From: Alishewanella agri BL06
GTDB lineage: Bacteria > Pseudomonadota > Gammaproteobacteria > Enterobacterales > Alteromonadaceae
Reading direction: 5' to 3'
Length of the DNA stretch: 64,000 nucleotides
Assembly: GCF_000272005.1 (NCBI RefSeq)
Contig: NZ_AKKU01000021.1
Location: 101 to 64,100 of the forward strand
Positions 29,893 to 32,105 of the stretch are shown in pieces. The position numbers and the translations under genes were made by a program. The notes under the pieces were generated by a model. That model made no database searches. It worked only from the letters and a program-made list of their open reading frames with translations, and was not told the DNA's origin. Position 1 is the first letter of the stretch; each line of letters begins with the position of its first letter.

Positions 29893-30516
29893 ATGATTAG
29901 ACCATTAACGCCACGTCAGGCAGAAATTCTGCAACTGATTAAAGATTATCAAAGTGAAACCGGGATGCCGCCAACCCGCGCTGAGATTGCTGTGCGTCTG
30001 GGTTTTAAATCGGCGAATGCCGCCGAAGAGCATTTAAAAGCGTTGGCAAAAAAAGGCGTGATTGCGATGTTGCCCGGTACGTCCAGAGGGATCCGGCTGA
30101 TTGAAGATGACACTGCACCGGAACAGTTGGGATTACCCTTAATCGGTAAGGTCGCTGCTGGTCAGCCGATTTTAGCGGCAGAACATGTACAGGATCACTA
30201 TCAGATTGATGCAAACCTGTTTAAGCCGCATGCGGATTTCCTGCTACGGGTGCAAGGGATGAGTATGCAGGATATCGGCATTCTGGATGGTGATTTACTG
30301 GCCGTACATAAAACACATCAGGCGCAGCCTGGGCAAGTGATCGTGGCCCGCGTTGATGACGAAGTCACCGTGAAACGTTTTCAGCGCGATGGCCATCAAG
30401 TATTGTTGTTACCGGAAAATCCGGATTTTCAGGTGATAAAAGTCGATTTACGGCAGCAGCATTTCGCCGTGGAAGGCCTGGCAGTTGGCGTGATCCGTAA
30501 CGGCAGCTGGTTATAA
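29893..30516 (+). CDS. lexA: SOS repressor LexA
   Basis: The 207-residue repressor-protease has a winged helix-turn-helix (1-70; [21 protein letters not shown], then [20 protein letters not shown]). The self-cleavage Ala-Gly is in GKVAAGQP (about 86-88), and the catalytic Ser in QGMSMQD and Lys in VTVKRF form the dyad. RecA-stimulated autocleavage derepresses the SOS regulon. The ATG lies directly next to SOS box 2. Confidence 0.98.
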
Positions 30517-30547
30517 TTCCACCTGTTCTCAATAAGTTATTTTCCCC

Positions 30548-30586
30548 AAAGCACTGGTATGACCATTTGGTTTTATCGGTGCTTTT
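30548..30586 (+). terminator. possible terminator of lexA
   Basis: AAAGCACTG (30548-30556) can pair with CGGTGCTTT (30577-30585), nine pairs including one G-T, over a 20-base loop, followed by a short T-rich stretch. The loop is long and the T run short, so confidence is limited. It is the only terminator-like structure after lexA. Confidence 0.4.
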
Positions 30587-30760
30587 GCATTTTAGGGGTT
30601 TACATAATTCAATTCCTGGACAATTCTTAGACGGTAGCTGGTGAAAAAATAACAACAGGTGTGCCACTACTGATTTCAGCGCTAGCCTCGAAATCAACCC
30701 AAAAAACAATAACAAGAATAAAATTGCGAAACTTATTTACCCAATAGCATTGACGATGCG

Positions 30761-30863
30761 GGTAGGCGGCAACTGAATGCATCCTCAGGAACATAGTAGT
30801 CCTATGTGACTGGGGTAAGTGAAGGCAGCTAACACCCCCGTATCTTCAAGGAAGAAGGGTATA
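30761..30863 (+). ncRNA. structured intergenic RNA element upstream of the oxidase operon
   Basis: The core GACTGGGGTAAGTGAAGGCA (30808-30827) and the closing AGGGTATAG resemble a short structured sequence I recall in many intergenic copies in Enterobacterales and other Gammaproteobacteria (perhaps Rfam RtT; name uncertain). Folding is evident: ACATAG/CTATGT stem with five-base loop, tandem G-A mismatches, then CCTCAG (30783-30788) pairing with CTGGGG (30810-30815). It lies about 100 bases before coxB. Whether it is an independent RNA, a leader element or a dispersed repeat cannot be told here. Confidence 0.45.
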
Positions 30864-30959
30864 GCACATAGATTCGGTTGGGTGGGTAGTAAAAAAACCG
30901 TGTAGTTCTGTGTACTTAGTTTCTGCAATTTGCTTTGCAAATGACAGAGGAGAAGTACA
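30864..30959 (+). promoter_or_regulatory. upstream region of the cytochrome oxidase operon
   Basis: This stretch must carry, or lie downstream of, the promoter for the nine-gene oxidase operon. It holds an inverted repeat ATTTGC-TTT-GCAAAT (30928-30942) close to the start codon and the ribosome site GGAG before GTG 30960. I cannot point to a convincing -35/-10 pair. Confidence 0.35.
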
Positions 30960-32105
30960 GTGACAAACGCGCGTTGTCTGCTTTGGTCGCTGCCGACCCT
31001 GCTTTTTGCCGCATCGGCAAACGCATCAAAATCCATGCCTTTAAATATGACCAAAGGCGCCACTGAAATCAGTCAGCAGGTTTACGACCTGCATATGACC
31101 ATATTTTGGATTTGCTGTGTTATCGGTGCTGTGGTGTTTGGGATCATGTTCTGGTCCATCATTCGCCATCGTAAAGCCAGGGGAGTGCAGCCAGCTCAGT
31201 TCCATGAGAGCACTAAGGTTGAAATTCTATGGACTGCCATTCCGGTAGTCATCCTGATCGGTATGGCGATTCCCGCGACTAAAACCCTGATTGCGATGGA
31301 GGATACCTCTGCGGCAGATGTCACGGTATTGGTGACTGGCTCGCAGTGGAAGTGGCATTACAAATACCTGGAACATGACCTGGAGTATTTCTCACTGCTG
31401 GCCACCCCGCGCGAACAAATCGCAAACAAATTAGCGAAAGGTGAAAACTACCTGCTGGAAGTTGACCGGCCGCTGGTGATTCCAACCGGTAAAAAAGTGC
31501 GTTTTCTGATGACCTCGGATGATGTGATTCACTCCTGGTGGGTACCTGCCTTTGCCATAAAAAAAGATGCCAATCCTGGCTTTATTAACGAAGCCTGGAC
31601 CCGGGTCGATGAACCGGGCATTTATCGTGGGCAATGTGCCGAGTTGTGCGGTAAAGACCACGGCTTTATGCCAGTGGTGGTGATTGCCAAGACCCCCGAA
31701 GATTATCTGGCATGGGTGGCACAGGAAGAGAGCCGGATCGCTGCCGAAAAAGCGGCCGAGCGCGAATTGCTGGCGATGAATATGGATATGGCGGAGCTGA
31801 TGGCAACCGGTGAAAAAGTTTATCAAGGTTGGTGTGTCGCTTGCCATCAACCGACTGGTGGTGGCTTACCCGGTATCTTTCCGGCGCTGAAAGGCAGTCA
31901 GTTAATTTTGAATGACCGCCAGGCGCACATTGAAATCATCGTCAACGGCAAGGCTGGTACCGCAATGCAGGCTTTTGGCAAACAGCTGAGTTTAAAAGAG
32001 TTGGCGGCGGTTATTACTTACACCCGTAACGCTTTTGACAATAACACCGGGGATGCCGTGCAAGCTGCCGATGTCTACGCCGTACAGCAGGGCAAGGGAG
32101 AATAA
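30960..32105 (+). CDS. coxB: cytochrome c oxidase subunit II with fused cytochrome c domain (caa3-type)
   Basis: The 381-residue protein has a signal peptide, two membrane helices (about 45-70 and 90-110), a cupredoxin CuA domain and a C-terminal cytochrome c. CuA ligands are in GQCAELCGKDHGFMPV (Cys 226, Cys 230, His 234, Met about 237) with His in VIHSWWVPAF. Heme c attachment is CVACH (292-296), with a likely Met ligand later (AMQAFGKQL). It accepts electrons and passes them to subunit I. The start is GTG, with GGAG seven bases before. It heads the operon. Confidence 0.96.
   Translation: MTNARCLLWSLPTLLFAASANASKSMPLNMTKGATEISQQVYDLHMTIFWICCVIGAVVFGIMFWSIIRHRKARGVQPAQFHESTKVEILWTAIPVVILIGMAIPATKTLIAMEDTSAADVTVLVTGSQWKWHYKYLEHDLEYFSLLATPREQIANKLAKGENYLLEVDRPLVIPTGKKVRFLMTSDDVIHSWWVPAFAIKKDANPGFINEAWTRVDEPGIYRGQCAELCGKDHGFMPVVVIAKTPEDYLAWVAQEESRIAAEKAAERELLAMNMDMAELMATGEKVYQGWCVACHQPTGGGLPGIFPALKGSQLILNDRQAHIEIIVNGKAGTAMQAFGKQLSLKELAAVITYTRNAFDNNTGDAVQAADVYAVQQGKGE

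Follow-up and report, generated by a model that had tools for sequence, protein, structure and literature searches.

The structured feature ahead of the caa3 oxidase gene coxB is a full-length copy of the repeat known as ERIC, IRU or RU-1. It spans 126 bp at positions 30736-30861 of the window (the whole 64,000-nucleotide stretch of DNA that was analysed) and lies on the + strand, the same strand as coxB. We hold with high confidence that the feature is a TA-targeted, non-autonomous miniature inverted-repeat element (~126 bp), that it is a lineage-specific insertion, and that it has no demonstrated role here. The element is ordinary in kind: the mobile repeat is a known one, and only its host lineage is outside the families named in the review's account of these repeats (PMC2229807 / PMC10969869). 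It sits between lexA (29893-30516, + strand) and coxB (caa3 oxidase subunit II; 30960-32105, + strand), both taken from the list of open reading frames, with names from an earlier sequence-only reading and from our own reading of the proteins, and for coxB also from sequence-matched relatives. Judged from the closest named relatives of coxB (81% and 80% identity), the host genus is Rheinheimera/Arsukibacterium-like. The lexA stop and the coxB start are 443 bases apart, as that reading had claimed, and the ERIC ends about 98 bases ahead of coxB.

Identity and extent of the element

The name ERIC comes from the published RU-1 sequence; no ERIC annotation appeared among the blastn matches listed. 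The 127-nt E. coli RU-1 (= ERIC = IRU) reference is printed in PMC2759123, and its reverse complement aligned to the window copy with 93/134 alignment columns identical and a score of 47.5, against 200 shuffles at -19.2 (sd 5.1, best -7.5). An HMM built only from genus copies (63 copies, length 119-131) recovered E. coli RU-1 at 107.5 bits. The covariance model R1 scored 124 bits over 30732-30863, a value to be read with the window copy being one of R1's own 44 training sequences, and a match to Rfam family RF02818 (below) covered the same element. The right terminus, GGGTATA, is exact, while the left reads TTTACCC in place of TATACCC. Each end is flanked by a TA, presumed to be the target-site duplication. 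The left TA is at 30734-30735 (boundary ±2 nt), placed by comparison with the empty alleles of G023, G010, G019, G005, and G022; the right TA is at 30862-30863, placed by comparison with empty alleles of the cox site and by the same TA pattern at loci L199 and L141. The ERIC2 primer used as a probe had no match at ≤3 mismatches over its 22 bases. Its 16-base 3′ part matched 30806-30821 with 2 mismatches, which is within chance, as 37/100 shuffles also matched at ≤3.

The sequence-only reading had placed the feature at 30761-30863. The feature is real, but that interval omits the 5′ terminal repeat, and the true start is about 25 bases earlier (~30736-30861, with flanking TA). The description of the feature as a widespread intergenic repeat of Enterobacterales with an RNA-like fold was borne out, the repeat being present also in related families. 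Among the three options raised, a leader RNA, an excised small RNA, or a plain dispersed repeat, the last is the best supported.

Rfam gave no match in the whole window at curated thresholds. At E ≤ 10, the lexA-coxB gap had a full-length match (1-129) to RF02818, V_AS5, at 49 bits (E 9.6e-10; gathering score 96), and one further match at chance level (E 8.7). The core of the feature had been associated with RtT (RF00391) in the sequence-only reading, and beyond this association nothing favored RtT RNA as the identity of the element. An Rfam search had been proposed as the check; it returned nothing over cut-off and no RtT at E ≤ 10 in the gap, although it did return the sub-threshold RF02818 match. 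Nor did RF00391 match anywhere in the genome at E ≤ 10, although the same search detected it in four control genomes, E. coli among them, and exceeded the cut-off in one. We therefore rejected RtT, which we regard as having practically no chance of being correct; the element is an ERIC.

The RF02818 match raises a second reading, that the element is a V_AS5-like small RNA with a transcript of its own. The match is full length, the overall hairpin is similar, and Rfam types V_AS5 as an antisense RNA gene. However, the score is about half of the gathering value, a simple scan for a promoter or terminator found none, and the RF02818 model itself acts like a dispersed repeat, matching many times within single genomes. 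We consider this reading very unlikely. Although typed as an antisense RNA gene of Vibrio, RF02818 behaved as a dispersed repeat, with up to 18 matches in one genome, and it matched ERICs. The V_AS5 family may consist of Vibrio ERIC copies, that is, it may be a mislabelled ERIC family.

The window element resembles ERIC/IRU/RU-1 in its length, its TATACCC...GGGTATA terminal inverted repeats, the TA at its insertion site, its intergenic, dispersed copies, and its one long imperfect stem-loop. It differs in its host, which is of Rheinheimera/Arsukibacterium type rather than of the Enterobacteriaceae and Vibrionaceae named in the review (PMC2229807 / PMC10969869), in its low copy number here, and in its left end. 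RUP and Correia/NEMIS are likewise described there as small MITEs that form hairpins and have TA at their termini or target sites, but they are families separate from the window ERIC. RUP is thought to be mobilised by the IS630-Spn1 transposase, according to the same review; for the enterobacterial repeats, PMC2759123 (2007) described the mechanism of transfer as not elucidated.

Copies and insertion history

R1 found the element at four places in its own genome (G000), two of them near full length: the window copy (124 bits), a longer variant on contig C9 (83.7 bits), a 69-bp internally deleted form on contig C12 (G000:C12:57266-57334, L255; 46.6 bits), and a weak fragment on C9 (25.6 bits, E 0.03). 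With blastn alone, the window copy was the sole strong match in this genome. A count of genomic copies was among the checks proposed for the feature, and with R1 it returned a dispersed repeat, one of the four places being weak.

Copies are common beyond this genome. RF02818 matched 21/25 genus genomes at E ≤ 0.01 (22/41 in a wider set), and 44/247 genomes drawn from the order (20/88 genera) at E ≤ 0.001. At E ≤ 10, blastn found similar DNA in 4525/5426 E. coli genomes, with a best match of 75.4% identity over 86% of the query and only 2 E. coli records at ≥80% query coverage. The same threshold returned 55 plasmid records, most of them from Escherichia (17), Salmonella (16), and Klebsiella (11) and a few from Vibrio (4) and Yersinia (1); 18 of the 55 had ≥80% coverage. 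Within the genus, RF02818 matched 98 places in 25 genomes, of which 81 (the window copy and 80 others) were used, and by a simple ORF test none of the 81 was inside a long ORF.

Copies also varied in architecture. Sixteen longer variants of 136-157 bp (L169, L171, L176, L178, L180, L182, L187, L189, L192, L194, L196, L198, L201, L206, L209, and L213) carried extra sequence, able to form hairpins, in one arm or both at roughly the same stem position, often GGGCCGGGCTGGCG..CCAG. Mini-ERICs of 58-71 bp (L193, L208, and L255) were without the apical part. L146 consisted of two different ERICs adjoining head to tail, and the left flank of L137 held a piece of another ERIC end, which suggests that one ERIC inserted at the terminal TA of another.

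Thirty-one genomes of the genus contained coxB, and 30 of these loci were obtained and 8 aligned. Reading of the junction in all 30 gave one full ERIC, two remnants, and 27 empty junctions. Since 27/30 junctions are empty, the ERIC is a lineage-specific insertion. Five of the empty sites (G023, G010, G019, G005, and G022) were in the 8-locus alignment. The remnants, in G003 and G016, retain ~31 bp of the ERIC 3′ end with a right junction identical to that of the window. The HMM missed the G003 remnant and R1 missed both, so the absence of small remnants elsewhere rests on the reading of the junctions.

A TA duplication at the cox site can be read only by allowing one substitution and a 2-nt discrepancy on the left. 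Intact ends were present at 18 sites; we searched seven of these for empty alleles and examined the three with spanning matches. At L199 and L141 the filled and empty alleles differ by the element plus TA, and at L140 natural empty alleles are present with a diverged TA. The remaining 4/7 sites had no junction-spanning match among the matches listed. A TA duplication for these repeats was already in print, as given in PMC2759123.

From these alleles, we infer that the simplest history would be a single insertion before G000, G003, and G016 diverged, with a later deletion in G003 and G016. A putative transposase supplied in trans would have moved the ERIC into a TA of the lexA-coxB gap in this shared ancestor, and most of the element would subsequently have been deleted in the latter two. 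The arrival of an ERIC ahead of a respiratory operon was probably chance.

Fold and strand polarity

The predicted fold of the window ERIC is one long imperfect hairpin, and a single long stem-loop is in print for the E. coli ERIC (PMC2267715). The nested pairing described for its apical part (30783-30815, + strand) was exact, and the hairpin is supported by sequence, fold, and covariation: CCTCAG (30783-30788) pairs with CTGGGG (30810-30815), a tandem G-A mismatch follows (GA at 30789-30790 facing GA at 30808-30809), and ACATAG (30791-30796) pairs with CTATGT (30802-30807). The fold of 30761-30863 exceeded chance (z = -2.0, 9/200 shuffles as good), and the whole element at 30732-30863 reached -47.0 kcal/mol (z = -3.4, 1/200 shuffles as good). 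The reverse strand folded more weakly (-40.6, z -2.8, 2/200 shuffles), and the fold computed as DNA was weak (-17.9, z -1.6, 12/200 shuffles).

Alignment A3 (n = 44) was used to follow the fold across copies, and it showed the fold to be common to different families. It holds the window copy and 39 other genus copies, taken from 41 HMM rows with <88% mutual identity (L146 left out), together with one named record each of E. coli, K. aerogenes, Y. ruckeri, and a Vibrio sp. In A3, 94.5% of cells were paired and 27/36 pairs had double changes, counts that are inflated by shared ancestry with non-independent events, as are the wobble and G-A counts that follow; 0/500 shuffles reached either value, and slid pairings paired 33-40%. 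G-T (that is, G-U) cells numbered 146 versus 21 A-C cells, with a nearly invariant pair at columns 63-79 the source of 37/146 of the former. Slid controls gave ratios of 0.4-2.8, random re-pairing gave a mean of 215 versus 153, and 1/500 re-pairings reached the real ratio. Another 40 copies from other genera, hand-picked and mostly high-scoring among the matches listed, had 137 G-T versus 24 A-C cells (100 versus 24 without the columns 63-79 pair; 0/500). Because the wobbles of the coxB-sense strand would be A-C mismatches on the opposite strand, the coxB-sense strand seems, judged from these alignments, to be the one on which the fold is kept.

The apical tandem G-A was kept in 41/44 A3 copies and 36/40 copies from other genera. 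Lower in the stem, tandem G-A recurs at two more positions, in 25 and 22/44 A3 copies and in 20 and 17/40 of the others; the window copy has one of the two. Beside the apical tandem, 31/40 copies from other genera had U-U where the window copy has a G-C pair. A kink-turn reading of the tandem was dropped, as there is no adjoining bulge.

That the fold is kept on one strand suggests that selection or amplification acted on a single-stranded form, either a transcript or single-stranded DNA during movement. More specifically, ERICs may be more than DNA palindromes: the coxB-sense strand may have been selected, or copied, as a folded single strand in which short stems separate as many as three tandem G-A modules, a proposal that we put forward tentatively and think more likely wrong than right. 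PMC2267715 describes ERIC structure as predictable on both strands, and V. cholerae ERICs with eroded ends as not predicted to fold; we counted both points against the preferred reading of the element as a whole. If the tentative proposal is true, the form that functions would be the folded strand, either as RNA to which a protein or a nuclease binds or as single-stranded DNA formed as an intermediate of mobility.

The element and the cox operon

The ERIC lies on the coxB strand, ~98 bases ahead of the gene, and folds strongly, as would be expected of a conserved leader RNA acting in cis on the caa3 oxidase operon; a leader RNA was one of the options raised. However, this option failed the sequence-only reading's own check of relatives, as the other 29 genus loci had no full copy upstream of coxB: G003 and G016 kept only ~31 bases and 27 junctions were empty, while other full genus copies adjoin genes other than coxB. 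We rejected the conserved cox leader on the distribution of full, remnant, and empty junctions across the 30 loci, and regard it as highly improbable. Nor did the ERIC change the predicted folding of the coxB ribosome site: accessibility of the Shine-Dalgarno sequence was 0.37 with the element or after its removal in silico, and in the same predicted ensemble the CCTCAG/CTGGGG pairs had a probability of at least 0.95.

Other sequence in the gap was conserved. A block directly ahead of coxB (30864-30962 in the window; 94-116 nt) occurred in 30/30 genus loci, with or without the ERIC, and has the form RCATRGRTTCGG ... GTG ... CTGTG ... CTGC..(T)TTGC.(A/T)TGCAAA..GACAGAGGAGAAG. Because it is present in all 30 loci regardless of ERIC, the conserved leader, if there is any, is this block and not the ERIC. 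RNAalifold paired the block into a candidate structure, with 0/21 pairs showing double changes; its outer stem had a probability of 0 in the predicted ensemble of the window, with or without the ERIC, and it had no Rfam match above chance. Two more blocks, in window 30540-30632, were conserved in the 8 aligned genomes. The first, after lexA, is hairpin-like and contains CTGGTAYGACC, which may resemble operators of the GntR/PdhR type. The second, TTTAGGGGTTTACA...TGGA...ATTCTTA, is possibly the cox promoter region.

A further explanation is co-option: in this species alone, the ERIC would have become a site that governs the processing or stability of a lexA-cox transcript. De Gregorio 2005 is reportedly the original paper on such an effect of ERIC on Yersinia transcripts through RNase E. 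In the reviews PMC2229807 and PMC10969869, ERICs at the 3′ ends of Yersinia genes are described as affecting transcript stability, the ERIC RNA destabilising upstream transcripts through an RNase E site in an orientation-dependent manner. The window ERIC lies between two co-directional genes, and its fold is strong and strand-polarised, both of which fit such a role. Its two nearest relatives at the site (G003 and G016) have nevertheless lost most of the ERIC, and the orientation bias in the genus was not found in other genera. Within the genus, 26/37 site clusters were co-directional with their genes (p = 0.02; genes were called on both sides of 51/52 clusters), whereas in the 40 copies from other genera the figure was 15/28 (pooled 41/65, p = 0.046); we did not rely on this unreplicated bias as evidence for an mRNA role. 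Co-option is in our judgment unlikely, though far less so than a conserved leader.

For the preferred reading, a mobile repeat that arrived by insertion, presence of the ERIC in the cox mRNA is something we infer, because the simple scan recognised no promoter. Transcribed as part of the cox 5′ UTR, the element would form a hairpin domain of its own, which would perhaps alter RNase processing and would not be needed for cox expression.

The main value of the analysis is a correction, from a candidate respiratory leader RNA to a mobile repeat. In addition, V_AS5, which Rfam lists as an ‘antisense RNA’ family, appears to be this ERIC repeat too. What most deserves to be retained is the compensated, strand-polarised fold with its nearly invariant tandem G-A. 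With clean filled, remnant, and empty alleles and a low copy number, this genus lends itself to asking which agent mobilises ERICs and why one strand has kept its fold.
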